A program made the position numbers and the translations under genes. A DNA stretch of 35,183 nucleotides from Rhizobiales bacterium Ga0077530 (GTDB lineage Bacteria; Pseudomonadota; Alphaproteobacteria; Rhizobiales; Hyphomicrobiaceae). The stretch is from contig LNEA01000002.1 in NCBI GenBank assembly GCA_001464855.1, forward strand, positions 1-35,183, written 5' to 3'. The notes beneath the pieces were generated by a model, which was not told the origin of the DNA, did not search any database, and saw only the letters and a program-made list of their open reading frames with translations. This document shows positions 2,106 to 24,775 of the stretch, piece by piece. The first letter of the stretch is position 1. Each line of letters begins with the position of its first letter.

Positions 2106-3320
2106 TTGACGTCGAAGGCCGCTGATCCGCCGAACCCGCCGCGCAGCTCCAGTCCGACGGTACCGCTTTGGCTGCTGGCGCTGTTTACGTTGAGCGGCCC
2201 GATCGCCATGCACATGCTGGTGCCGGCGCTGCCCCACGCGGCGCGCGATCTCGGCGCAAGCGTCGGCGCGATGCAGCTCACGATCAGTCTCTACATTCTC
2301 GGCATGGCCGTCGGCCAGCTCGGATACGGACCGGTCTCGGATCGCTTCGGCCGCCGACCGGTTCTGGTCGCGGGATTGATCCTCTATTCCGTGGCAAGCA
2401 TTGCCGCATACTTCGCGCCGACCATCCACGCCCTCATCGCCGCGCGCTTGTTTCAGGCGTTTGGCGGCGGCGCGGGGCTCGCGTTGAGCCGAGCCATCGT
2501 GCGCGACACCGCGAAACCTCCCGATATCGCGCGCCGGCTCGCGCTGATGAACCTCATGGTGACGCTTGGGCCGGGAATGGCGCCCGTCATCGGCGGCGCC
2601 CTGTCGACCTCGTTCGGCTGGCGCACCATCTTTCTCGCCCTCGGCGCATTGGGCGTAATCAATCTCCTGCTGCTCTGGCGGCTGCTGCCGGAGACCCGCG
2701 CCATCACTGGGCCTGTGAGCGCGGCCACGATCGCCAAGGACTACCGCCAGCTCCTGCAATCGCCGTCCTTCATCGGGTACGCAATCGGTGGCGGCTGCGC
2801 GACCACTTCGATGTACGCCTTCATCGGCGCAGCGCCCTTCATCCTGGTCGATGAACTCCACCGACCGCCCTTCGAAGTCGGCATCTACCTTGGCCTTCTG
2901 GTCGGCGGCTTTTCGCTCGGCACTATTCTCGCGACGCGCCTCATCCCCGGCGTTCCCATCTCAACCTTGCTGACCCGATCCAGCCTCATCAGCGCGTTGG
3001 CCGCTTTCGTGTTTCTCGGCGCGGCATTGTCGTCGCACCTGAATGTCGCGCTCGCCGTCGTTCCTATGTTCATCTTCACGATCGGCGCCGGCATCTCCTC
3101 GCCGACAGCGTTGACGCAAGCGCTCGGCATCAACCCGCGCGTTATCGGCTCGGCGTCGGGGCTCTACGGCGCGGTGCAGATGGGTATCGGCGCACTCTGT
3201 GCTGGGCTTGTCGGCCTTGGTCAGGATCCGGCGCTGGCCTCCGGCATCGTCCTCGCGACGGCAAGCGTCGTCGGACAACTCGCGTTCTGGATCGGCGCGC
3301 GCAGCCGCCGCGAAACCTGA
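2106..3320 (+). CDS. MFS multidrug efflux transporter, Bcr/CflA-like
   Basis: A polytopic membrane protein of about 404 aa with some 12 hydrophobic segments. The loop after the second helix carries the MFS motif A (GYGPVSDRFGRRPVL), and the first helix region has MHMLVPALPHAARDL, typical of Bcr/CflA drug:H+ antiporters (about 400 aa). The TTG at 2106 is preferred as the start because it gives the family's usual length; the reading frame stays open upstream to 1998, but those residues look like non-coding translation and the nearby ATGs are out of frame. It is expected to export drugs or metabolites across the inner membrane. The substrate cannot be deduced. Start-site confidence is moderate and family confidence is high. 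Confidence 0.85.
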   Translation: MTSKAADPPNPPRSSSPTVPLWLLALFTLSGPIAMHMLVPALPHAARDLGASVGAMQLTISLYILGMAVGQLGYGPVSDRFGRRPVLVAGLILYSVASIAAYFAPTIHALIAARLFQAFGGGAGLALSRAIVRDTAKPPDIARRLALMNLMVTLGPGMAPVIGGALSTSFGWRTIFLALGALGVINLLLLWRLLPETRAITGPVSAATIAKDYRQLLQSPSFIGYAIGGGCATTSMYAFIGAAPFILVDELHRPPFEVGIYLGLLVGGFSLGTILATRLIPGVPISTLLTRSSLISALAAFVFLGAALSSHLNVALAVVPMFIFTIGAGISSPTALTQALGINPRVIGSASGLYGAVQMGIGALCAGLVGLGQDPALASGIVLATASVVGQLAFWIGARSRRET

Positions 3321-3351
3321 TCGAAAGCGGTAGCGTGTGACGCGGTTCAAC

Positions 3352-3831
3352 TCAATTCGCGGCCACGATCGCGCCGTTGAGCGACGCTGCATAGACGATC
3401 CAGGCGAAATACGGGGCGAGCAGGCAAGCCGCGACTCGGTCAACCCCGGCAGACGTCCAGATGGTTGCCGCCAGCACGAAAATCAGCGCGACGATAATCG
3501 CGAGCGCGGCGGCGAGCGCGTGGAACGCGAAGAAGACGGGCGACCACGCCGCATTAAGAGCGAGTTGCACGATGAACAAGCCGATCGCTCGATTGGCATT
3601 CGGCACGCCTTCGCGGGCACGCTCCCACAGCAACCAGAGGCTCACGGCCATCAACGCGTACAGAAGGTTCCACGCAACCGGAAACGCCCAATTCGGAGGG
3701 GTCCAGCTTGGCTTGGCCAACGACGCGTACCATGTCGGGATCTCTGGTCGCGTAATCATCGCCCCGACGGTCGCCACGGCGAAGCACAGTACGAGGCACG
3801 CAAAGAGGCGCACCACGGATGATATCGTCAT
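3352..3831 (-). CDS. tspO: TspO/MBR family membrane protein
   Basis: A 159-aa protein starting at ATG 3831 with five hydrophobic helices. Family landmarks are visible: the WYASLAKPSWTPPNWAFPVAWNLLYALM segment split by prolines (PSWTPPNW), and the second conserved block LNAAWSPVFFAFH. TspO proteins are outer- or inner-membrane tryptophan-rich receptors that bind porphyrins and cholesterol-like ligands; in alphaproteobacteria they modulate tetrapyrrole and photosynthesis gene expression. The size matches the family (about 155-160 aa). The gene converges on the transporter at 2106-3320 with about 30 bp between stops. Confidence 0.9.
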   Translation of the reverse strand: MTISSVVRLFACLVLCFAVATVGAMITRPEIPTWYASLAKPSWTPPNWAFPVAWNLLYALMAVSLWLLWERAREGVPNANRAIGLFIVQLALNAAWSPVFFAFHALAAALAIIVALIFVLAATIWTSAGVDRVAACLLAPYFAWIVYAASLNGAIVAAN

Positions 3832-3965
3832 TGCAAGTACCCTTCCCGTGTGAGCAACGAGCAGAAGCGCAAAAGGTTTCGGGGGCCTCCACGCAATCCC
3901 TCGACGCGCTCTGGGCAACCTGCTTTAAGGCGATGAACGCGGATCGAGCCGGAGACTGAAGGACA

Positions 3966-4325
3966 ATGACTGCACTGTCGATCTACTCGGTCGTCGCAGG
4001 GATCGCGGCGCTGTTTGGCATGGTCGCCGGTCGTGTGTTTGCGATCGAAGGCGGCCGCCGTCTATCCGCAGTGCTCGCCGCGGCCTACGTCGGAGCAGGG
4101 GCCGGATTGCTGACGTCCGTCCTGATCGGCCCTTTGCTCGCATTGGTGGCGCAATACCTCAATTCGAGTGCCAGCACATGGTTTGATGCTCTGGAAGTCG
4201 CGGGCACGACCTTGTGGTGGGGCACGCTTGCCGGTGCGGCCGGTGGGCTGGCAATCGGCATCGTCATTATGTGTATGCCGTCGACCTGGTTCTTGAGATC
4301 GCCGAGCCAGACCAGCAAGAATTGA
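3966..4325 (+). CDS. small membrane protein of unknown function
   Basis: A 119-aa protein with about three hydrophobic segments: residues 5-25, the AAAYVGAGAGLLTSVLIGPLL stretch near 40-60, and the GTLAGAAGGLAIGIVIMCM stretch near 90-108. GAAGG/GAGAG runs suggest tightly packed helices. A GAAGGA ribosome site lies just before the ATG. It is divergent from tspO and precedes tRNA-Pro, so it is probably the last host gene on this side. I do not recognise the family. Confidence 0.6.
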   Translation: MTALSIYSVVAGIAALFGMVAGRVFAIEGGRRLSAVLAAAYVGAGAGLLTSVLIGPLLALVAQYLNSSASTWFDALEVAGTTLWWGTLAGAAGGLAIGIVIMCMPSTWFLRSPSQTSKN

Positions 4326-4413
4326 GCCCGCACGGGCACGCCGCGCGATCCGCGTTGCAGCGGCCCCTCGCGACCACCGACGCAACATAGCGAACAGATT
4401 GTGCTAAAGGTAT

Positions 4414-4490
4414 TGGTCGGGGCAGAGAGATTCGAACTCCCGGCCCCCTGCTCCCAAAGCAGGTGCTCTACCAGGCTGAGCTATGCCCCG
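4414..4490 (-). tRNA. tRNA-Pro (anticodon TGG) with encoded CCA
   Basis: The reverse strand folds as a cloverleaf. The acceptor CGGGGCA pairs with TGCCCCG, the D arm contains GCTCAGCCTGGTAGAGC, the anticodon stem CCTGC/GCAGG encloses loop TTTGGGA (anticodon TGG), and the T loop is TTCGAAT. Discriminator A is at 4417 and CCA is encoded at 4416-4414. The tRNA is intact. The phage element begins beyond its 5' end, which is the wrong side for classical integration into a tRNA 3' end. Confidence 0.95.
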
Positions 4491-5016: not shown

Positions 5017-5152
5017 CGGCCGTGACCCAAATAAAATCAGCCTAAGCTTCTATCGTCCGTCAAGGACATGACGGCTGCTACACCCACTCGCCTTACGTCC
5101 TTCATGCAAGTTACGGACATACGGCTCGGGGCTTTTATTTGGGTCACGGCCG
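5017..5152. repeat. perfect 20-bp inverted repeat with a 96-bp loop
   Basis: The arm at 5017-5036 (CGGCCGTGACCCAAATAAAA) is exactly reverse-complementary to 5133-5152. Smaller inverted pairs occur inside the loop (CCGTC/GACGG near 5056-5073; GTCC/GGAC near 5098-5117). The repeat lies just upstream of the predicted leaderless start at 5215. The stretch 4919-5199 has no convincing gene and is locally AT-rich near 4925-4990. Confidence 0.75.
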
Positions 5153-5199
5153 GTATCGTTCATGCTGCATGTAATGCGCCGAGACAGGCGGGGGGCGGT

Positions 5200-5208
5200 T
5201 GCTATCAT
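5200..5208 (+). promoter_or_regulatory. extended -10 promoter TGCTATCAT
   Basis: TGC plus TATCAT at 5203-5208. The expected +1 (seven bases after the hexamer) is 5215, the G of an in-frame GTG, predicting a leaderless mRNA. No -35 box is seen. Confidence 0.5.
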
Positions 5209-5214
5209 GGATAC

Positions 5215-6408
5215 GTGAGACTTCCCTCAGATCGAATACTTATCCGCTCTATTCGCTCCGTCATCATTTGCCAGCAGCGACGATTTTCCGTCGACGATCG
5301 GACGATCAATTTCATTTCGCTTCTCGAATTATTGCAAAAGCAAAATTTCAAATGTCAAAATTGTCCGCGCGAATTGTTCTCCGCCCGACATCTCGACCAC
5401 ATCATACCTGTAGCCTCCGGCGGACCTCACACCATCGCAAATGTCCAGTGGCTCTGCATCCCCTGCCATAAGAGCAAGCACAACCCCAATCGCTCCATAA
5501 GACACAGTGAGCGCGACTACTACTTCGACCCCGACACAACAGACCCCGCCCAAGCTGTCAGTAGCGGTTGGAAACCCACGCTACAATGGCTAGAGCCAGC
5601 TCTTGTTTACGGCGGAGCGCACTGCAAGCACCTCCGAGCAGAAGCTCTACTTGCCGTGCGTTTCGCCAATATGAACAAGCTCCACATCGGATTTTCAAAA
5701 GACATCGATCTCCCGAATTCAGGAGGATTTTTATTTATCGACGACGAGATTCCGAAGATCGCCCGCGCGCGGATCTTCGATGTCGAGGAGCACTCCTTCA
5801 ACCCCCTGCGCCACATCGACTATCGGACAGCTCGCGACCTCGCCGTAGTGTTGTATTCGCTCTCTCCGCAAGGCGAGAACACGTTGACTGTCCGTAACGG
5901 CAAGCGCGCTTTGCTTCAGGCTCTTCTGAGGGCCAATCGCCTCAACCGCATCGAGGGCGACGAAGAGATCACGGCGATGATCGACGACCTTCTCATCTCG
6001 CCTGTCCTTAAGCGTGTCCTTTGCAATCCGGAGAACTTGCACAACACCTTCTCCTTCAACCCGCGCTCCGTGATCTTGGCTCGGATCAACCGAGCCGAGC
6101 TTGGCGAATTCGATGCACTCGTTCTCGGACAATTCCTGATCGCGCAATTTAAAGGACAGATCGTCATCCCCGACTTCGGCTTTTACGGACGCGACGCTCA
6201 CGTGAGCCTCATACGGCAGAACCGGCTGATCGCCGGGGTGAACTACCTCGACGAACTACCGCTACAGCTGCGTCGGACGGCACTCTCCGTAAAGGACAGG
6301 GTCATCGGCACCGCATTATTCGATGACGCGGTGCTCCTGGCGAAATACGAAGGGCTCACCCCAACATCCAACGGCTTCAATGATTTCGTCGACAAAGCGA
6401 TTGCTTAA
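5215..6408 (+). CDS. HNH endonuclease fused to a degenerate HerA/VirD4-like domain
   Basis: A 397-aa protein if started at GTG 5215, which I prefer because the -10-like box places +1 there; the frame is open back to 5068 but that part crosses an inverted repeat. Residues 35-92 are an HNH nuclease: CQNC (47-50), HLDHIIP with catalytic-type H at 62, N76, and CIPCHKSK (81-88) forming the zinc knuckle. Residues from about 110 on resemble the core of the ATPase encoded at 7247. DVEEHSFNPL matches DPDTSPPPLNFL there; SVILARINRAELGEFDAL matches KVVLVKGGRESLGDEGM; IVIPDFGFYGR sits where the Walker B IMIVDEAH should be; and NRLIAGVNYLDELP matches CGFLAATQVLDQIA. No Walker A (GKS/T) is present and the Walker B glutamate is missing, so this half is probably a non-hydrolysing pseudo-ATPase. 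First gene of an operon with the ATPase and Replic_Relax genes. Confidence 0.7.
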   Translation: MRLPSDRILIRSIRSVIICQQRRFSVDDRTINFISLLELLQKQNFKCQNCPRELFSARHLDHIIPVASGGPHTIANVQWLCIPCHKSKHNPNRSIRHSERDYYFDPDTTDPAQAVSSGWKPTLQWLEPALVYGGAHCKHLRAEALLAVRFANMNKLHIGFSKDIDLPNSGGFLFIDDEIPKIARARIFDVEEHSFNPLRHIDYRTARDLAVVLYSLSPQGENTLTVRNGKRALLQALLRANRLNRIEGDEEITAMIDDLLISPVLKRVLCNPENLHNTFSFNPRSVILARINRAELGEFDALVLGQFLIAQFKGQIVIPDFGFYGRDAHVSLIRQNRLIAGVNYLDELPLQLRRTALSVKDRVIGTALFDDAVLLAKYEGLTPTSNGFNDFVDKAIA

Positions 6409-6522: not shown

Positions 6523-7281
6523 ATGTACAGAACGCCGAGGCTCTGGCTACTTGCGCCCATCGCACTCTTTATCTGGATACAATACAGCGAAGGCGGCGTC
6601 GGAGGCATCCTCGCTTTTTTTATCGTGCTCGCTTGTGCAGTGTGGGCCTACGACAATCGCTACTTTTTCCAAGATGTTACCACTGCGCGCGCAAAGACCG
6701 CGCAGCAGACCGCACTCGCTGAAACACCTGCACGTACGACGCTACCGACCATCGAAGATTCAAAGATGGCCCAAGCGCAGATGCACGTTGCCTGGAACAT
6801 CATCCAGCGTGCGCAGCGCGACAAGCGCATCAACTACGCGCTCAGCATTCTCGAAGAAGCGGCTCTACCGCTGAGCAAGGTGCGCCAGCTCGATCCGGCT
6901 ACCACCATTGAAGTGAAGCCTGACAAGAAGTCGGACAACACCATTACGCTCACGCACGACAGCATCACCGCCTTCATGCTTTTCCAAGAAGCCGCCTGGC
7001 TGCGCGAGCAGTCTGAGCAGCGCAACGAACAAGTGATGGATGCGGCGATGGCTGGCGATCAGAGGAGCTTCAAAACATTGAAGTCGGAAGCTACGCAGCT
7101 CGCCGCGCGCGCTATTGCGGCAATACGCAAAGCCATCGCCTACGAACCGGACAACATTGCCTACCTCATGGAACTGACGAAGCACATGGATGACTGCGCC
7201 GAGAAGAAAGCGATAGTGATGCACGTCCTCTCGATGGAGCCGTACAATGTCGAAGCTTTGGAAATTGCTAACCGGCTCTGA
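6523..7281 (+). CDS. membrane-anchored TPR-like helical protein
   Basis: A 252-aa protein. Residues 3-18 (LWLLAPIALFIWIQY region) and 24-45 (VGGILAFFIVLACAVWAY) form two membrane helices. The rest is soluble and almost entirely helical. The end (IAYEPDNIAYLMELTKH...AEKKAIVMHVLSMEPYNVEAL) has the spacing and P-N/A pattern of a TPR unit. A scaffold that anchors DNA-processing partners at the membrane would fit its place between the pseudo-ATPase and the ATPase genes; this is inference. Its 3' end overlaps the next gene by 35 bp, which suggests translational coupling. No family recognised. Confidence 0.6.
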   Translation: MYRTPRLWLLAPIALFIWIQYSEGGVGGILAFFIVLACAVWAYDNRYFFQDVTTARAKTAQQTALAETPARTTLPTIEDSKMAQAQMHVAWNIIQRAQRDKRINYALSILEEAALPLSKVRQLDPATTIEVKPDKKSDNTITLTHDSITAFMLFQEAAWLREQSEQRNEQVMDAAMAGDQRSFKTLKSEATQLAARAIAAIRKAIAYEPDNIAYLMELTKHMDDCAEKKAIVMHVLSMEPYNVEALEIANRL

Positions 7282-9229
7282 CAAGTATGAATATGGCGCA
7301 GCAAAGAGCCTGCCGAGCGCCCCGATTTACGACCTGAAGGGCCACGTCGCGCACGTGAGAGCGCTATACGAAGCGCACCCCAACCGAGCACCAGAAGCCA
7401 AACAGAAACTCACTGACGAATGCCTAGCCGCTATAGAGCACGGCATGGGCCGACCTATTGATGACGCTCTCCGGGGCTTCGTCGAGAACAACATCTTCGA
7501 GCTGCTGATCTACGGAAAGGCGGCATGGACCAACGAATACGAAGCGCCTGAGCATCGCGAGCTCCTGCAGAATGAACAGGCCGCACTCACTGATCCCAAT
7601 CGAACTGAAAAGGTGCAGCTGGTCATCGTCGATTTGTTTGCCACCCTCTTCTCAAATCTGCCGACGCTCGAAGGCACCTCATTGCTCACGGTGCCGCTGC
7701 ACACCATCACGAAGAACTACGTCGGCCTCGTGAGCTACATCATCCAGCAGCTGAACGAAGGACTTTTTCCTACGCTCTCCTCTTTCATCATGGAGAATGT
7801 CTACCGCATCACCGGCACGGAGAAGGGTAGTGGTAAGACGCTCAAAACTCCTGCGGACGTGGACGATCCGACTGAGTTCCTGCGCAATACGCCGTTCTAT
7901 GACCTCTTCACTACCCAGGTGCCGTTTGCGATCCCGCAGAAGACGTGGGCGTCGCATGGTATAATCCTGGCACCACCGAACCATGGAAAAACTCAACTTT
8001 TGGGAAGTCTTATCGCTGACTTTTTACATCGCCCTGATGCCCCTGGCCTTTTTGTTCTTGACCCCCATGGCGACCTTTTTACGCTTCTCTCTCATAGGGT
8101 GGACGCTAGCAGGCTCGTTACTCTTGACCCTGATACTTCTCCGCCTCCGCTAAACTTCCTCGACTTCGGCACCTCTACCGAAGCGCAAACACTCCAGACG
8201 TTCTCGTACCTAATGTCCTCCCTCAGTGGGGGACTTTCTGACAAGCAGAGCGGGGTCGTGCCGTACCTACTCAAGCTCTTGCGGCTGATACCCGATGCAA
8301 GTCTTGAGACCCTTCGGCTTGTAGTGGATGAGAAGGTGAAGCGGCCTGAACTTTCCCAATTTGCTTTCGCAATCGCAAAGCTCCCACTCGTTGACCAAGG
8401 ATTTTTCCATAACCAATTCTACCACTCCAGCATGGACCCCACGAAGCAAGCGCTAGGTGCCAAGCTCTATGCGGCCATGGCGTCGGACACCTTTCGCGAG
8501 ATGTTCGGAGCCAAAACGAACAGCGTCAACTTCGACCAGCTCATTGCCGACCGGAAAGTAGTGTTAGTGAAAGGCGGTCGCGAAAGCCTCGGCGATGAAG
8601 GCATGGAGATTTTTCTGCAGTTCATCATCGCGCAGTACTACGCCGCTGGCCGCAGACGCGAGAAGATCCCTGAGAGTGACCGCCACCTGTGCATCATGAT
8701 TGTCGATGAAGCGCACACCGTATTGAAATCACCAGTCATTTCAAAAATCCTCGTTGAGCTACGCAAGTACGGCTGCGGGTTTCTCGCTGCCACCCAGGTG
8801 CTCGACCAGATTGCTCACGAAGTCAAAGCATCGGTCTACGGTGCGACGGCTATCAAGATTGCCGGTCCTGTCTCCTCAGCATCTGGGGATGCGGGGCAGC
8901 TCTCCAAGGACATGTATTGCAGTGAGCAATTCATCCTCAGCATGAAGGCGGTCGAGCGCTCACACGCCGACTGGGCATTCTATGTGCGAGGGCTGACGGA
9001 CAAAGCAACGCGGGTGCGCGTGCCGTATGGTGCCCTGGAAAGACTACCCGTTGCTGGTGCCGCTTCGGCCCATGGTCGCATCGTTCATGAGCCAATTGTA
9101 CCACAAACGCACGAAGGCCCGAGCAAGCCCGAGCCTCACGCGCACAAGGCTGACCCACCCATCATACCAGGCGACGATCCGAGCAAGGCTGTCCCCAGCG
9201 ACTGGGTCACCAAGTCGAAGCAGCCCTAA
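7247..9229 (+). CDS. VirD4/TraG-like (HerA-FtsK superfamily) ATPase
   Basis: A 660-aa protein. Walker A is GIILAPPNHGKTQLL (about residues 239-253, GKT present), followed by the LFVLDPHGDLFTLL block characteristic of conjugation coupling and HerA-type ATPases. Walker B is CIMIVDEAH near residue 482, followed by the ELRKYGCGFLAATQVLDQI sensor-like segment and a C-terminal FYVRGLTDKATRVRVP strand. This is the domain order of TraD/TraG/VirD4 coupling proteins, hexameric motors that pump DNA. About 220 helical residues precede the motor and no membrane segment is obvious, so the TPR-like neighbour may supply the anchor. A GGAG lies about 8 nt before the ATG. Such a motor is uncommon in a tailed phage and points to a mobilisation or DNA-segregation function. 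The gene encloses a second hydrophobic ORF at 7983-8153. Confidence 0.8.
   Translation: MSKLWKLLTGSDKYEYGAAKSLPSAPIYDLKGHVAHVRALYEAHPNRAPEAKQKLTDECLAAIEHGMGRPIDDALRGFVENNIFELLIYGKAAWTNEYEAPEHRELLQNEQAALTDPNRTEKVQLVIVDLFATLFSNLPTLEGTSLLTVPLHTITKNYVGLVSYIIQQLNEGLFPTLSSFIMENVYRITGTEKGSGKTLKTPADVDDPTEFLRNTPFYDLFTTQVPFAIPQKTWASHGIILAPPNHGKTQLLGSLIADFLHRPDAPGLFVLDPHGDLFTLLSHRVDASRLVTLDPDTSPPPLNFLDFGTSTEAQTLQTFSYLMSSLSGGLSDKQSGVVPYLLKLLRLIPDASLETLRLVVDEKVKRPELSQFAFAIAKLPLVDQGFFHNQFYHSSMDPTKQALGAKLYAAMASDTFREMFGAKTNSVNFDQLIADRKVVLVKGGRESLGDEGMEIFLQFIIAQYYAAGRRREKIPESDRHLCIMIVDEAHTVLKSPVISKILVELRKYGCGFLAATQVLDQIAHEVKASVYGATAIKIAGPVSSASGDAGQLSKDMYCSEQFILSMKAVERSHADWAFYVRGLTDKATRVRVPYGALERLPVAGAASAHGRIVHEPIVPQTHEGPSKPEPHAHKADPPIIPGDDPSKAVPSDWVTKSKQP
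7957..7965 (+). promoter_or_regulatory. intragenic extended -10 promoter TGGTATAAT
   Basis: A perfect TGnTATAAT lies inside the ATPase gene. The expected +1 is 7972, 11 nt before the ATG of the nested ORF at 7983. It is identical to the TGGTATAAT before the terminase gene at 18519. Confidence 0.45.
7983..8153 (+). CDS. nested two-helix membrane ORF overlapping the ATPase gene
   Basis: In the +1 frame relative to the ATPase gene, ATG 7983 opens a 56-codon frame ending at TAA 8151-8153. The product starts MEKLNFWEVL, has two strongly hydrophobic segments (about residues 11-33 and 36-53) joined by a short turn, and ends in RLR, a holin-like or small toxin-like layout. Within this stretch 29 of 56 ATPase codons end in T. 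In the 36 codons before and 36 after, only 7 and 4 do. T-rich third positions of the ATPase are the second positions of this frame and are what make it hydrophobic. A perfect TGGTATAAT lies 17 bp upstream. No Shine-Dalgarno is present. Expression is unproven. The function (holin, toxin, or membrane partner of the operon) is inference. Confidence 0.45.
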   Translation: MEKLNFWEVLSLTFYIALMPLAFLFLTPMATFLRFSLIGWTLAGSLLLTLILLRLR

Positions 9230-16808: not shown

Positions 16809-17255
16809 ATGAAGGATACAGAGGCGTGCCCTGGCCGAATAGTTCGCAGTGTCCCAATTCATAGCCAGCATCACGCATCGCACGGTTTGGCGTCATGTCG
16901 TACTGCGAAGATTGTTCTCAGTGGCGAACCGCGCAGCACGAACCACATCTACAGGAACACGTGTCGCAATGGGTACTCCACTACCTATCTGACCGCAGAA
17001 GGCAAGGCCCTGAAGGAGCAGTATCAGTGGGAGGCGAAGAGCCAGTGGAAGGGGCCGCCGCTTGAAGGGGATGTGGCGCTCACGATGACCTTCTATTTCA
17101 AAACGAGGCGCAAGCGCGATCTCGACAATCAGAACAAGCTGGTGCTGGATGCCTTGTCGGGCATTGCATATGACGACGATGCGCAAATCGCTGAGCTTCG
17201 CCTCATTCGAGCGTACGACGCGCAACGCCCGCGCATAGAAATCAGGGCAGCTTAG
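16809..17255 (+). CDS. RusA-type Holliday junction resolvase
   Basis: A 148-aa protein. From about residue 35 the fold follows RusA (PF05866): IVLSGEPRSTNHIYRN, a central strand VALTMTFYFKTRRKRD, then the catalytic RDLDNQNKLVLDALSG with its conserved aspartates, then YDDDAQIAEL. RusA dimers resolve four-way junctions made during recombination and replication. The first 35 residues are extra compared with the family, but the -10 box one helical turn upstream supports ATG 16809 as a leaderless start; an internal TTG at about 16884 would give the usual N-terminus. Its end overlaps the convergent membrane gene by 14 bp. Confidence 0.8.
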   Translation: MKDTEACPGRIVRSVPIHSQHHASHGLASCRTAKIVLSGEPRSTNHIYRNTCRNGYSTTYLTAEGKALKEQYQWEAKSQWKGPPLEGDVALTMTFYFKTRRKRDLDNQNKLVLDALSGIAYDDDAQIAELRLIRAYDAQRPRIEIRAA

Positions 17256-18093
17256 GAACTATCGCTGGCCGGAAGTGGTCGCCAATTGAGGACGTTGGCA
17301 TCTGCCAATCTGGGTAACGGACGTATTCTACAGCTTCGACGTCTTTTGTTGGTATCTCAATGAATTGGGATGGTTGAACAAGAATCACCCGCTCAGCGGT
17401 GTAAATAAAAAGGTTCCCAGTAATTGACGGCTTTCCAGTTCGTTGGATGGTGACCTCGATTCCGCCTCCGTGGCGAATCATACGAAGGAATTGATCGAAT
17501 ACGCCTGGCACAAAGAGAGCAGAAGAAAGCCAGAGGGTCAGAGCAAGATAAGAGATGCTGATAATTCGATTGGCATATTGAGCGTAAGCTGAAATCGCTG
17601 CGGGCACTCCGACCACGAAAAATATCAATATAACTGTCGCCGTCGGATGATCGTGAACTCTCAGCTCAATCTGAAGAAAGCTTGGCACACCAATATTAAT
17701 TGTTCGAGCTACGAAGGTCGGAAAGTAGCTCACTACAATGATCAACGAAATGAACAGTGTGAGTACTACAGCTCGCACCCATCCGCGAACTTCAGGAAAC
17801 GGAGCAACCCAATTGAAGAAACGAAATGTCGCGTATATTATTAATGCGACCACGCTAGCCAACGTGAAAATACAAAATGACATGATTGCGACTGTCAGTG
17901 TTAGAAATGGCACGCCCTCAACGGGAATACGAGCCCCGTTTCGGAAAGCGTAAAAATAAGTTGCATACGTACTTATGAATGCCATAAACGCGGAGCCAGT
18001 CACGATTGACGCACTAATAGAAATGAGAATTTTGATGACGAAGGGGGCGTCTGCCCACCACCGAACTAGCCGTGAAATCAGGCTCTGAACCAC
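17242..18093 (-). CDS. polytopic membrane protein cargo
   Basis: A 283-aa protein. GTG 18093 has GGAGG 5-6 nt upstream and is preferred over the in-frame TTG at 18105. About five hydrophobic helices (beginning FVIKILISISASIVTGSAF) occupy residues 20-205. A soluble C-terminal domain of about 75 residues (IEVTIQRTGKPSITGNLFIY, AERVILVQPSQFIEIP, KDVEAVEYVRY) looks like a small beta-barrel. It points against the phage genes and diverges from the HExxH gene. No family recognised; superinfection exclusion or defence is possible by position only. Confidence 0.6.
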   Translation of the reverse strand: MVQSLISRLVRWWADAPFVIKILISISASIVTGSAFMAFISTYATYFYAFRNGARIPVEGVPFLTLTVAIMSFCIFTLASVVALIIYATFRFFNWVAPFPEVRGWVRAVVLTLFISLIIVVSYFPTFVARTINIGVPSFLQIELRVHDHPTATVILIFFVVGVPAAISAYAQYANRIISISYLALTLWLSSALFVPGVFDQFLRMIRHGGGIEVTIQRTGKPSITGNLFIYTAERVILVQPSQFIEIPTKDVEAVEYVRYPDWQMPTSSIGDHFRPAIVPKLP

Positions 18094-18106
18094 CGCCCCC
18101 TCCAAG

Positions 18107-18553: not shown

Positions 18554-18817
18554 ATGGCATCACCCACTATCGGCACAGGCAAAGGCGGTAAGAGCTTCCA
18601 AGACAGGCAGCTTGCGGCCGACGTCCGAAACCAGGCGCTTAAAGACATTCATGCCGTTCTCAAAGGCGACGCATCCGCGGAAAACTACAGCGAATTCAAG
18701 AAAGCGATGTTGCTCAAGCTCGCTTCGACGCTCCTGCCCCGTCTCAACGAAGTAACGGGTGAAGACGGCGGCCCCGTTGAGATCAAAGGCGTCGAGATCA
18801 CCATCCGCAAGAAATGA
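18554..18817 (+). CDS. probable small terminase subunit-like protein
   Basis: An 87-aa protein directly before, and overlapping by 4 bp (ATGA), the large terminase gene. It has a basic glycine-rich start (TIGTGKGGKSFQDRQLAADV), a helical body, and an end LPRLNEVTGEDGGPVEIKGV. Position, size and the TGEDGGP end fit a short terminase small subunit, but no HTH is obvious, so the assignment is by position. Confidence 0.5.
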   Translation: MASPTIGTGKGGKSFQDRQLAADVRNQALKDIHAVLKGDASAENYSEFKKAMLLKLASTLLPRLNEVTGEDGGPVEIKGVEITIRKK

Positions 18818-20142
18818 CCGACGTCAAAGTGAACTTCGAGATCCACGAGTCCCATATCCCGCTCTTTGAGCGCAAGGGCTGGCGCTACGCCTTCCTGATG
18901 GGAGGCCGCGGCAACGGCCGCTCCGGCACCGCATCGCGCTACGTAGTCTCTCAAGTCATGGGAAAGGAGTACACGCGCGGCGCTATCTTGCGTGCGGTCA
19001 AGGAGGACATCCGCACATCGTGCTGGCAAGAGCTCATTGACCGAGTGGAAGAGGAGGAAATCCGGGCCGCCTTCGACATCACTGAGAACAACATGCGCAT
19101 GGGCTATGGGGTCAACAGCATCCAAGCTCATGGCTACAAAGCTGGGTCAGGAAGTCAGACAGCAAAACTGAAATCCTTGGCTGGGTACAACCTTCTTTGG
19201 AACGAGGAGGCGGAGGAGATCGGTGAGAGCGAATTTATGAAGCTCGACGACTCTCTGCGAACTACCAAGGGAAGCATTCGCATAATCTTCACGCTCAACA
19301 CGCCGCCAAAGAACCACTGGATCATCAAGCGCTTCTTCGATCTTCAACCCGCTCCGCAGGCGCCTGGCTTCTTCATTCCACGGCTCAAGCGTGAGGCGAA
19401 AGATGCGCTCTACATTCCAGGCACGTGGCGTGACAACGCGCCGAACATCGATCCCAATACGGCAACACGCTATCAAGCGTACAAGCAAACGAACCCGTCC
19501 TACTACTGGCAGATGATCGAGGGGCTAAGCCCCGAGGTTGTGCTTGGTCGTATCTATAAAAATTGGAAGATCATCGACAGCGTCCCGCACGAGGCGCGTC
19601 TGCTTGGCTACGGCCTTGACTTCGGTTTTGACCCAGATCCAGCTGCGATCGTCGCAATCTATTGGTACAACGGCGGCTACATCCTCGACGAGAAGCTCTA
19701 TCAAACTGAGCTGCTGAACCAGCACCTCGCGGCGACCTTCAAGGGCTTACCAAAAGCGCCGGTAATCGCTGATAGCGCAGAACCTAAGAGCATCGCTGAG
19801 CTTCAGACTCACCAGATACCTGTCATTCCATGCGAGAAGGGTGCCGACAGCGTCGACTTCGGTATCAAGCAAGTGCAGGGCCTACCAATCAGCTACACGC
19901 GCACCTCGACCAACATTCATGCGGAGGTCGAAGGCTATGCTTGGAAGATCACCAAGGACGGCGAGAACGTCGGCATAGAAGATCCGAAGTGCCCGAACCA
20001 CCTGATGTCAGCCGCACGCTACGGCCTGTCTATGCTCGCGGGCAGTGGTGCGATGTCGATATTCGATCCGGCGCGCAAGGACCGCGAACGCATCCAGGTG
20101 TCCGTTACGCGGCAGAAGCAGACGCAGAACCAGGCGCGCTGA
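18814..20142 (+). CDS. terL: phage terminase large subunit
   Basis: A 442-aa protein. The ATPase half has a deviant Walker A MGGRGNGRSGTAS (residues 29-41), with Arg 36 where most terminases have Lys, and Walker B YNLLWNEEAEE (125-135) with the catalytic Glu. The nuclease half begins near 263 with GYGLDFGFDPDPAAI (RNase H-like first Asp), then VIADSAEPKS (second Asp) and a third acidic region before MSAARYGL. This is the PBSX/Terminase_3-like layout. It cuts and pumps phage DNA into proheads through the portal. Two minus-strand cargo genes separate it from the portal gene, which in most phages is adjacent. Confidence 0.88.
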   Translation: MTDVKVNFEIHESHIPLFERKGWRYAFLMGGRGNGRSGTASRYVVSQVMGKEYTRGAILRAVKEDIRTSCWQELIDRVEEEEIRAAFDITENNMRMGYGVNSIQAHGYKAGSGSQTAKLKSLAGYNLLWNEEAEEIGESEFMKLDDSLRTTKGSIRIIFTLNTPPKNHWIIKRFFDLQPAPQAPGFFIPRLKREAKDALYIPGTWRDNAPNIDPNTATRYQAYKQTNPSYYWQMIEGLSPEVVLGRIYKNWKIIDSVPHEARLLGYGLDFGFDPDPAAIVAIYWYNGGYILDEKLYQTELLNQHLAATFKGLPKAPVIADSAEPKSIAELQTHQIPVIPCEKGADSVDFGIKQVQGLPISYTRTSTNIHAEVEGYAWKITKDGENVGIEDPKCPNHLMSAARYGLSMLAGSGAMSIFDPARKDRERIQVSVTRQKQTQNQAR

Positions 20143-20146
20143 AGAC

Positions 20147-20557
20147 CTATGGTATGGCTTTGAAAAGCAGCCATTTCAGTACGTCATAGACGATCGGATA
20201 CAGAACGCCGACAGCGAACGACACTAGCGCGATCCACGTAGCGATTCTGCCTGCTGGATCGGCCGAATTCATGGCCCATCGTACGCTCTGAAGCGGGTTG
20301 GCGTGCTCGAACGTAAACCTGGCTTCTTCATCAAGCGTCAGACCCATATCTTCGCGGTTCAAGTGATCCAACCCGATGGTATCCCGTTTATCGTCGCCGG
20401 TACCCCTCATCGCCAGAAAGTACGGACCTCTGCCATTGACCATTACGCGAGCTATCGACCCATTGCTCACATTGTTCCGCTGACTCCAATAGACGCGGGC
20501 GGTATCCTTGTACTGATCATTGGCAGCAAGCGCCCTTACCCTGAGCACGACTTCCAT
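20147..20557 (-). CDS. C-terminally membrane-anchored protein, cargo gene 2
   Basis: A 136-aa protein with GGAGG 6 nt before its ATG. A soluble beta-rich part (residues 1-105, with ARVYWSQRNNVSNGSIARVM and TIGLDHLNREDMGLTLDEEA) is followed by one membrane helix (IATWIALVSFAVGVLYPIVY). The LDHLNREDMGL block loosely resembles small double-psi barrel sensors, a speculative match. It begins 13 bp after the stop of the next minus-strand gene, forming a two-gene unit inserted between terL and the portal gene. Confidence 0.6.
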   Translation of the reverse strand: MEVVLRVRALAANDQYKDTARVYWSQRNNVSNGSIARVMVNGRGPYFLAMRGTGDDKRDTIGLDHLNREDMGLTLDEEARFTFEHANPLQSVRWAMNSADPAGRIATWIALVSFAVGVLYPIVYDVLKWLLFKAIP

Positions 20558-20569
20558 GTCCCCTCCATG

Positions 20570-21013
20570 TCATTTGTAGAGCACCGCCACCAAACCAATT
20601 AGCGTACCCACGGCTCCGGTAAGGCCGGTCAGAAGAAGACCGATCACTTTCACCCGTAACTCCCAGAACTGCCAACGCTGATTGCGTTCCTCGCGGATCG
20701 ATGCGCGCAACGCTGCCGCAGCTGCCACCGTCAGATACCGTCGTGGCGACGACGATCCTTCTTCCCACGCCGGATCATTAATTTTCGGCGTCGGAACGTA
20801 AAGCGCATTGGCTTCCTTGATCAGCTGCTTTGTTATGACGCCGTTGCGAAGCTCGTCGATCATCCAAACCAGGCTTACAATTTCGCCTTCATCAGGCGGC
20901 TTCGTCTTTTCTCTTTTCGCGACAGCGACTCGCTTATCAAACGCGGCTCGCTCCTTGCGCTCCCATCTATCTAAGCTCGCAATCTCGCGCTTGTATTTCC
21001 ACCAATCCCACAT
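20570..21013 (-). CDS. C-terminally membrane-anchored helical protein, cargo gene 1
   Basis: A 147-aa protein from ATG 21013 (AAGGT upstream; GTG 21022 is an alternative). A charged helical N-terminus (WWKYKREIASLDRWERKERA) and middle (EGEIVSLVWMIDELRNGVIT) lead to a helix pair at the end (VKVIGLLLTGLTGAVGTLIG). First gene of the minus-strand pair. Host-type ribosome sites and opposite orientation mark the pair as a moron-like insertion; anti-phage or superinfection functions are typical for such positions but are not shown. Confidence 0.6.
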   Translation of the reverse strand: MWDWWKYKREIASLDRWERKERAAFDKRVAVAKREKTKPPDEGEIVSLVWMIDELRNGVITKQLIKEANALYVPTPKINDPAWEEGSSSPRRYLTVAAAAALRASIREERNQRWQFWELRVKVIGLLLTGLTGAVGTLIGLVAVLYK

Positions 21014-21042
21014 GCTCTGCACACCTTGACAGTCAAAAAAGA

Positions 21043-21051
21043 TGCTACACT
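21043..21051 (+). promoter_or_regulatory. extended -10 promoter TGCTACACT
   Basis: TGC plus TACACT, expected +1 at 21058, giving an 11-nt leader to the portal ATG with no ribosome site. A TTGACA at 21026 is only 14 bp from the hexamer. Confidence 0.5.
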
Positions 21052-23815: not shown

Positions 23816-24775
23816 ATGCCTACGACTACAACTCAGATCGATCCAGGCGTAGCTAACTACTACGATCGACGCCTTCTCAGGAAGGCAATGCCTCGTCTCA
23901 TACACCTCCTGTACGCGCAGACGCGCGATCTTCCGGAGGGCGACTCTACCGTTATTAAATTCCGTCGCTACAGCCTTTTGACTGCAGCTACCACTGCTCT
24001 TACCGAGGGTGTTACGCCTGCCGGTAGCAGGCTTTCCAAGACGGACGTAAGCGCCACTGTCAACCAGTACGGTGACTACATAACGCTCACCGATAAGCTT
24101 CTCTTCACGACCAGCGATCCGGTACTGAAGGAAGCCAGCAGCGTTCTGGCGCAGCAGGCGGGCAATACGCTCGACCAGTTGACTCGCGACGTGCTCCTGG
24201 CTGGCACCACCATCCAGTACGCCTCGACCGCCACCGCGCGCGTTGAAGTCGCGGCCGCGATGAAGATCTCACGCGCTGAGATCAAGGAGGCAGTGCGAAC
24301 GCTTAAAAACAACAACGCGGAGAAGATCACCGAGATGATCGACCCCTCAGACGGCGTCGGCACCTCCCCGGTTGATGCAGCCTTCATCGGCTTCGTGCAT
24401 CCGAACACGACCTTCGATTTGAAGGAACTCACGGGCTTCATCCCGGTCGAGAAGTACGGACAGCGCAAGGCGCTTCCGGGCGAGATCGGTGCACTCGACG
24501 AGGTTCGCTTCATCGAGAGCACAAACTCTAAAGTCTTCACGGGCGCGGGCGACTCCGGCATCGACGTGTACGGCACGCTCATCATAGGTGCCGACTTCTA
24601 CGCTCAGAGCCGCATCGCTGGTAACGCGATGAAGAACATCATCAAGCCACTCGGCTCGGCAGGTTCGGCTGACCCGCTCGACCAGCGCCAGACTACGGGC
24701 TGGAAGGCGACGTTCGTCGCTACCCGCCTGAACGAGGCTTTCGGCCTCCGCATCGAGCACTCAGTAACCGCTTAA
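23816..24775 (+). CDS. major capsid protein, N4-gp56 family
   Basis: A 319-aa protein starting MPTTTTQIDPGVANYYDRRL. The block LPEGDSTVIKFRRYSLLTAA, then ALTEGVTPAGSRLSKTDVSA and QYGDYITLTDKLLFT, is the characteristic N-terminal arm and A-domain entry of N4-gp56-type HK97-fold capsid proteins. EVRFIESTNSKVFTGAG and YAQSRIAGNAMKNIIKPLGS follow in the usual C-terminal order. It forms the icosahedral shell. No Shine-Dalgarno; T at -1. Confidence 0.85.
   Translation: MPTTTTQIDPGVANYYDRRLLRKAMPRLIHLLYAQTRDLPEGDSTVIKFRRYSLLTAATTALTEGVTPAGSRLSKTDVSATVNQYGDYITLTDKLLFTTSDPVLKEASSVLAQQAGNTLDQLTRDVLLAGTTIQYASTATARVEVAAAMKISRAEIKEAVRTLKNNNAEKITEMIDPSDGVGTSPVDAAFIGFVHPNTTFDLKELTGFIPVEKYGQRKALPGEIGALDEVRFIESTNSKVFTGAGDSGIDVYGTLIIGADFYAQSRIAGNAMKNIIKPLGSAGSADPLDQRQTTGWKATFVATRLNEAFGLRIEHSVTA

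Follow-up and report, generated by a model that had tools for sequence, protein, structure and literature searches.

Accessory genes of phages have been described at hot spots such as that of P2 and P4, a small locus between conserved phage genes that shows a high turnover of unrelated cargo, as far as the accessible text of the source goes (PMC9122126). Extra genes between the gene for the large terminase subunit (terL) and the portal gene are described, in the available portions of the respective papers, for actinobacterial phages (PMC7302621, PMC5513430) and for the Rhodobacter phage RcZahn (PMC8601537). Among the actinobacterial phages, Arthrobacter cluster AL carries a terL-portal insert, the direction of which is not given in the accessible text. 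At the protein level, the S-2TMβ effectors Cap15 of CBASS and OptE of Panoptes combine a two-pass transmembrane (TM) element with a nucleotide-binding β-barrel, according to the available part of PMC12657218. The locus described below shares elements with each of these systems.

The window, that is, the whole stretch of 35,183 nucleotides that was analyzed, is an entire contig of an assembly of 747 contigs. Since host-type genes at its left end (an HD_5 protein and an MFS transporter) are followed rightward by terL, the portal gene, and the gene for the major head protein, we read the window as a prophage truncated by the right end of the contig. A tRNA-Pro lies at 4414-4490. The PHROG match of the portal gene is weak, and its assignment is supported by its position and by the major head protein gene downstream. 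The features of the locus are as follows:

18814..20142, plus strand: terL, terminase large subunit (Pfam Terminase_3, 5e-24; PHROG terminase large subunit, 1e-33), left border of the slot
20143..21042, no strand assigned: variable slot from the terL stop to the promoter-like motif of the portal gene, with other cargo or no minus-strand cargo in close relatives
20147..20557, minus strand: gene A, 136 aa, predicted tail-anchored double-psi β-barrel resembling the CDC48/VCP N domain
20560..20566, minus strand: Shine-Dalgarno-like GGAGGGG of gene A, read from the sequence, 2 nt before the ATG of A
20570..21013, minus strand: gene B, predicted helical protein with one C-terminal TM helix, 147 aa from the ATG at 21013
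21043..21051, plus strand: TGCTACACT, extended -10-like motif before the portal gene, right border of the slot, at the same position in L018, L022, and L037
21069..22892, plus strand: portal protein gene (PHROG portal, E of 0.0077; homologues at 66% in L018 and 59% in L022)
23816-24775, downstream of the portal gene: major head protein gene (PHROG, 8e-72)

Two other regions of the window deserve mention. Near its left end, a VirD4/HerA-like ATPase and an HNH protein are encoded at 7247-9229 and 5068-6408; the TrwB_AAD_bind match of the ATPase (0.0053) lies below the cut-off, and the two genes may mark an island that has fused with the prophage. The minus strand at 17242-18105, immediately ahead of the terminase genes, encodes another reversed membrane protein, of 287 aa, with five hydrophobic segments and a GC content of 47.7%, versus 57% for the window. 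This protein had no tblastn match at an E value of 0.5 among the collected loci, no Pfam match, and no PHROG match better than an E value of 0.15.

The original prediction had placed two minus-strand genes between terL and portal, and both open reading frames (ORFs) were found there, between flanks recognized as terL and portal. They are closely spaced, with 4 nt between the terL and A stop codons, 12 nt between B and A, and 55 nt between the ATG of B and that of the portal gene. Opened at a GTG, the B frame spans 20570-21022 on the minus strand and encodes 150 aa; its real start is probably the ATG at 21013 (147 aa), since the homologue in L197 begins at a methionine aligned with codon 4 of B and an AAGG sits 10 nt ahead of that ATG. 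First-order Markov simulations of the terL-portal gap produced a single minus-strand ORF of at least 150 aa in 34 of 2000 runs, and two non-overlapping ORFs of the sizes of A and B in 0 of 3000. Because homologues exist for both proteins, we regard A and B as nearly certain to be coding. Hydropathy predicts exactly one membrane segment in each (A, residues 105-123; B, residues 124-142 in the 150-aa numbering), followed by 13 residues in A and 8 in B, and both proteins are thus predicted to be tail anchored, with a single TM segment near the C terminus. The proposed two-gene membrane-anchored unit, each member with a soluble domain and a C-terminal helix, was borne out by this analysis, except that the alternative of several helices per protein fell away.

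Moron genes often differ from the phage in base composition. The overall GC contents of A (54.0%) and B (55.0%) are not foreign to a window at 57.3%. Third-position GC is 0.63 in A and 0.62 in B, compared to 0.72 to 0.78 in terL, portal, and capsid genes and 0.64 to 0.68 in four other genes of the window, and GC evidence for a foreign origin is therefore not decisive. No sigma-70-like promoter was recognized on the minus strand upstream of B, and terminator-like sites, with 6 found versus 7.2 in shuffles, were not enriched.

We compared the terL-portal gap across viral relatives. With terL as the query, a scan of IMG/VR recovered 18 loci; scanning with a three-sequence portal alignment recovered 155 relatives, and 80 of them were kept. 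A single-sequence viral scan with the portal missed relatives later found by the alignment, and a portal search in 120 relative genomes matched only the own genome. Gap classes cover only the 37 of 80 portal loci in which terL was recognized, with L036, L018, and L116 counted once as the same contigs, and likewise L022 and L039. This left 32 distinct gaps, window included: 14 were tight (100 nt or less), 12 were filled mainly by plus-strand ORFs, 3 were filled by minus-strand ORFs (the window, L018, and L022), and 3 were classed as other, L037 among them. Since minus-strand filling was confined to those three gaps, reversed cargo is, within the sample compared, characteristic of the close group around the window.

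The close group consists of four phages including the window, two of them on short contigs (10.9 and 6.6 kb). Compared to the window, L018 has terL at 67% and portal at 66%, L022 has terL at 75% and portal at 59%, and L037 has portal at 62%, its terL being at 73% to the best of six queries. The L018 gap holds one minus-strand ORF of 268 aa and the L022 gap one of 218 aa with two predicted TM segments, while L037 has 229 nt from the terL stop to the portal ATG and no minus-strand cargo. This last gap is not a clean empty site, and a short plus-strand remnant may lie inside it. ORFs as long as that of L018 arose in 0 of 2000 simulated gaps, and ORFs as long as that of L022 arose in 0 of 3000, the latter in an enlarged region, since the L022 ORF overlaps the terL end by 8 nt and the longest ORF in the strict gap is 36 aa. 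Third-position GC is 0.57 in the L018 cargo and 0.54 in the L022 cargo, versus 0.74 in their terL and portal genes; A and B tend in that direction too relative to the terL, portal, and capsid genes of the window. Neither cargo had a Pfam match to an E value of 0.5, a PHROG match to 0.01, or a PADLOC match to 0.1.

Neither A nor B had a tblastn match in the L018, L022, or L037 locus, and A was also without a match in the whole records of L037 and L038, in a search that carried no positive control. The slot cargoes matched neither one another nor A and B by tblastn at an E value of 0.5; the best cross-match of a cargo, C22 versus L116/L036 (E of 0.13 to 0.20), covers 34 aa and lies outside the slot. 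By sequence comparison, the content of the slot differs between close relatives, and reversed cargo occurs in three of the four, window included. A and B had been called a moron, and the anatomy of that claim is upheld by the gaps of the relatives, with other cargo in L018 and L022 and no minus-strand gene in L037. The comparison of terL-portal gaps for empty sites, which the original prediction had proposed, found A and B missing from all three close relatives, which speaks against a pair that is always present in this phage family and against A and B as a universal phage gene.

Several further gaps and terminase loci differ in other ways. L038 (portal at 58%) was excluded from the close four as its terL was not recognized. 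Its gap holds a plus-strand ORF of 96 aa and a minus-strand ORF of 88 aa, and a 454-aa ORF upstream of its portal (3059-4423), read as a terminase, does not match the window's terL, perhaps reflecting a terminase swap beside a conserved portal. L034 and L035 share an interruption of terL by ~890 bp at residue 272/273, as by an intron or intein. More distant relatives, L026/L027 and L023/L024, carry small plus-strand genes in the terL-portal gap, including one of 94 aa with a metallopeptidase-like HEIMH motif and one of 81 aa that is presumably GroES-like, as recognized by eye.

The borders of the slot are sharp in all four close phages. The 3′ ends of terL are alike up to the stop codon, and similarity resumes at the sequence TGNTAYACT, which lies, measured from start to start, 15 to 30 nt ahead of the portal gene. 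TGNTAYACT occurs twice in the window versus 0.65 expected, a count reached by 15 of 100 shuffles. The broader TGNTAYAMT occurs 10 times versus 1.19 expected, a count reached by 0 of 100 shuffles, in a test that is partly post hoc, as the motif was widened from TGNTAYACT, first noticed in the four relatives. Nine of these 10 sites are on the plus strand:

7957, 10192, 10325, 14262, 15843, 18107, 18519, 21043, and 26924, plus strand: TGNTAYAMT sites from a motif scan of the window

Five of the nine lie 6 to 26 nt before picked ORF starts (14297, 18122, 18554, 21069, and 26942), and the remaining four are not ahead of picked ORF starts. Of the 80 portal loci, 25 (near-duplicates included in the count) also have TGNTAYAMT close to the portal start. 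We take the motif for a putative extended -10 promoter of the phage; given its short distance from the start codon at five sites, some phage transcripts could be nearly leaderless. A TTGACA at 21026-21031 was considered as the -35 box of the portal gene and rejected, since its 14-nt spacer to TACACT is too short for sigma-70. If the portal gene has a promoter of its own, cargo between terL and that promoter can point either way, and the promoter-like motif may thus explain the tolerance of reversed cargo. TGNTAYAMT is absent on the minus strand before B, which argues that B and A are not driven by this class of motif.

Protein A is a CDC48-N-type double-psi β-barrel followed by one predicted membrane helix at the C terminus. 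The profile built from A together with four homologues matched the VCP-type barrel of PDB 7dg9 at an E value of 1.1e-6, and an AlphaFold2 model built from the same five sequences reached a pLDDT of 84.9. Foldseek searches with this model ranked 7dg9 (4.1e-6) and Sec18 N domains (5.3e-6) at the top, and VIA-align gave Z scores of 11.2 to 11.8 to double-psi barrels over 82 to 84 residues at 1.9 to 2.1 Å among the first seven rows. A fold search of BFVD gave four matches at an E value of 0.001 or lower, three from giant viruses and one nameless. The fold is clear, but A falls outside the curated CDC48_N family (PF02359), scoring 13.4 bits against a curated cut-off of 35.1; four of seven homologues score 16.9 to 30.7 bits, all below that cut-off, and three have no match. 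Three oxidoreductase-like frames score 22.8 to 24.6 bits against a portion of the same model. A had nothing over curated Pfam or NCBIfam cut-offs and no PHROG match. The N domain of CDC48, VCP, and NSF is typically fused to AAA+ ATPase modules; A, at 136 aa and ending in a membrane helix, has no such module.

Two helices follow the barrel in the model of A, a short one (88-96) and a long one (101-134) that contains the hydrophobic segment. Conservation is higher in the juxtamembrane block (88-110) than in the barrel, with a mean pairwise identity of 0.371 versus 0.266 in 10 intact sequences and of 0.405 versus 0.287 in the eight that remain when L013 and L014 are left out. Conserved residues of this block are W94, D100-P101, I105, and W108. 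R21, G52, and W94 are invariant in all 10 intact sequences, and R27, I61, and R68 are no longer so once L013 and L014 join.

Homologues of A were found at 11 loci (L003, L004, L005, L007, L008, L009, L012, L013, L014, L016, and L017) scattered over plasmids, viral contigs, and chromosomes, and we read those of L004, L012, and L017 as chromosomal. The best, at 39% identity, is in an alphaproteobacterial MAG (L017). Homologues turned up in 3 of 299, 2 of 385, and 6 of 398 genomes, in overlapping sets that include the own genome, and those of L003 and L007 are broken by an internal stop. Neither A nor its L017 homologue matched INPHARED phages by tblastn, and A matched nothing in a single-sequence viral scan. 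In the viral contig L008, the homologue lies, in our reading of the ORFs, upstream of a presumed terminase on the same strand. Other homologues neighbor genes for NucS-like (NucS_C) and reverse transcriptase (RVT_1) proteins (viral contig L009), YefM-YoeB (L013), HIRAN and PIN-like (PIN_10) proteins (L016, Shinella), and DUF3800 (L012). A defense- or mobile-like neighborhood is suggestive only, since these neighbors are few and were picked by eye, and 3 of the 10 tested are without a Pfam match. On a Sulfitobacter plasmid (L005, 6001-9070), a 205-aa protein and then a caspase-like 637-aa protein (PADLOC caspase, 3.2e-7; no Pfam match) come after the A homologue, and the three may form an uncharacterized operon.

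Protein B is predicted to be helical with one C-terminal membrane helix. Its single-sequence AlphaFold2 model, made with no alignment, is all-helical at a pLDDT of 60, which was too poor for a fold search. Single-sequence searches of INPHARED (tblastn), viral scans, plasmids, and genome contigs found no homologue. A degenerate DNA pattern derived from the stretch LRxxIRxExxxRWxxW returned six viral stretches, one of them real: the L197 protein, the sole sure homologue, with 41% identity over 93 aa (B 55-147; E of 1e-14), to which the N-terminal half of B aligns only by global alignment. The L197 protein itself had no tblastn match in INPHARED, and plasmid searches with it and with B gave nothing, apart from short hits at E values of 2 or worse in one of them. 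This homologue lies in another phage (L200), where an 828-aa gene on the same strand ends 15 nt ahead of it; we read this neighbor as the tape measure. B thus belongs to a phage-borne family that, at least once, stands among late genes, an arrangement that argues against a role of B in lysogeny alone; such a codirectional, tape-measure-like neighbor suggests late rather than lysogenic expression of the family.

Weaker matches of B did not extend this family. B matched phrog_19471, a family without known function, at an E value of 0.011, and the L197 protein did so at 0.17; in a search for phrog_19471 in 200 genomes, the control was also without a match, so the negative outcome there carries no weight. 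Nothing exceeded curated Pfam or NCBIfam cut-offs, and a match to XopL_C (E of 0.053), below the cut-off, was taken as chance. Among 367 genomes of the class, B had 12 weak candidates (E of 0.001 to 0.05, some at 4e-4 by tblastn against this small set) besides its own; by eye, these were chance frames, antisense frames, or pieces of unrelated proteins, such as a transketolase-like protein (L184) and a long tail-protein-like frame (L192), and none was B-like. In nine of the genomes or records with A homologues (L016 and L017 not included), B had no match at an E value of 0.001 or lower, and one match at 0.277 contained three stops. We accordingly rejected A and B as an obligate pair.

We propose that A and B form a moron of two genes, lodged in an exchange slot of this phage group that is bounded by the terL stop codon and the portal's own promoter. 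Both proteins would be inserted post-translationally at the lysogen's inner membrane, with the soluble part in the cytoplasm. A single B-A transcript would arise from a promoter near the portal start, outside the phage's plus-strand class, so that B and A could be expressed even from a silent prophage. In A, the barrel would bind either a ligand or a partner protein; the membrane helix and the conserved juxtamembrane block (W94, D100-P101, I105, and W108) would together relay this binding as a change at the inner membrane. The most likely purpose would be to protect the lysogen by excluding or aborting superinfecting phages, a suggestion made by analogy with P2/P4 hot spots (PMC9122126) and with Cap15 and OptE (PMC12657218), as the available parts of these sources describe them. 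Neither A nor B matched any family of PADLOC-DB 2.0.0 up to an E value of 10. We are confident of the cassette and its architecture. The whole explanation, in which the pair is optional prophage cargo of this slot protecting the lysogen, we hold as a tentative reading with a somewhat less than even chance of being right, and a function of A and B in superinfection exclusion or abortive infection, taken on its own, as more doubtful than that.

The same evidence can be read in other ways. A and B might be proteins of the lytic cycle, acting in the control of lysis, in DNA injection, or at the membrane during assembly or entry, and encoded backwards by happenstance. The B homologue behind the tape-measure-like gene favors such a role, as does the weak resemblance of B to phrog_19471. 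However, A and B went unmatched in the loci of the three closest relatives, two of these loci hold unrelated reversed genes instead, the minus-strand position of A and B opposes the late direction, and A homologues also occur outside phages, on a plasmid (L005) and at presumed chromosomal loci. We consider a lytic role unlikely, though we rank it first among the alternatives. Next to it, and likewise unlikely, we place a neutral or decaying cassette without a selected function, which would fit the internal stops in 2 of the 11 homologue loci and the rarity of A homologues; the window copy is intact, however, and the stronger conservation of the juxtamembrane block relative to the barrel argues against decay.

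The short spacing of two small, membrane-anchored genes on one strand would also suit a toxin-antitoxin-like system, in which one of the two membrane proteins would be a toxin held in check by the other until phage takeover releases it, and homologues of A do lie near YefM-YoeB (L013) and PIN_10 (L016). Yet no convincing B match accompanied A homologues in the searched genomes and loci, which indicates that A does not need B, and neither protein matched a toxin family; we regard this reading as improbable, below both of the preceding ones. Finally, as its barrel is closest to the CDC48/VCP/NSF N domain, A could be a membrane-tethered decoy or adaptor for a host CDC48/VCP-like ATPase. CDC48_N exceeded its cut-off in 0 of 18 genomes (own and relatives) versus 4 of 14 controls, in a search in which the own genome is 88% complete and sensitivity is too low to list A itself. 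Weaker matches occurred in 5 of the 18, and the four frames read are, by eye, three oxidoreductase-like and one hydantoinase-like. With none over the cut-off and such frames below it, a host partner is probably lacking, and we hold the decoy to be by far the least probable of these readings.

Beyond protection of the lysogen by A and B, a broader reading, speculative and improbable in our estimate, though less so than a toxin-antitoxin system, is that A founds a dispersed family of small proteins of immunity or exclusion, in which a stand-alone CDC48-N-type barrel acts as sensor and the conserved juxtamembrane block with its one tail anchor as output at the inner membrane, and that the slot is a defense hot spot of this phage group. 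If so, A would be a single-helix counterpart of Cap15 and OptE, and the L018 (268-aa) and L022 (218-aa) cargoes would be unrecognized anti-phage genes. Its fold, a CDC48-N barrel tied to the membrane without an ATPase, would be a new membrane-sensing building block of bacteria and phages. Variable slots between conserved phage genes are a productive source of new anti-phage systems. The reversed cargo in three of four close relatives has no Pfam match over the cut-off and no PADLOC match, and the clear borders of the slot, a terL stop codon and a portal promoter, give a simple rule for harvesting further candidates.

In fold, A shares with the CDC48/VCP/NSF N domain (PF02359; PDB 7dg9, 1cr5) the same double-psi β-barrel, aligned over the full domain, and differs from it in having no AAA+ ATPase, one C-terminal membrane helix, and a score below the Pfam cut-off. 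No stand-alone membrane-anchored CDC48-N barrel and no reversed cargo at terL-portal were found in the literature searched, which left most subscription journals outside its scope. Like Cap15 and OptE, as presented in the available part of the source, A joins a small soluble β-barrel to a membrane element, a possible working analogy; unlike them, it has one C-terminal TM segment and a double-psi, CDC48-N-like barrel, and its neighbors are terL, B, and portal, with no CD-NTase, mCpol, or nucleotide cyclase (PMC12657218). A and B resemble bacterial tail-anchored proteins in their single TM segment at the very C terminus, although those treated in the accessible text of PMC6794478 are from E. coli and A and B are prophage cargo. 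As for the locus, the accessible text of PMC9122126 places the P2 slot, like that of the window, next to the portal gene (gpQ in P2), but in the cos-proximal gpA-gpQ interval rather than between terL and portal. Cargo of the window group measures 0.7 to 0.9 kb and is reversed in the three filled close relatives, which sets it apart from P2/P4, and its defense role is putative. Tolerance of inserts in the terL-portal interval is common to the window group, the actinobacterial phages, and RcZahn, and Microbacterium cluster EC, like the window group, has a repeated motif before start codons, whereas in clusters EC and EF and in RcZahn, going by the available portions of the sources, all genes run in one direction and the window's insert is backwards. 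Hot spots of phage accessory genes and inserts between terL and portal are thus known; what appears to be new here is the cargo families and their reversed orientation at this site.
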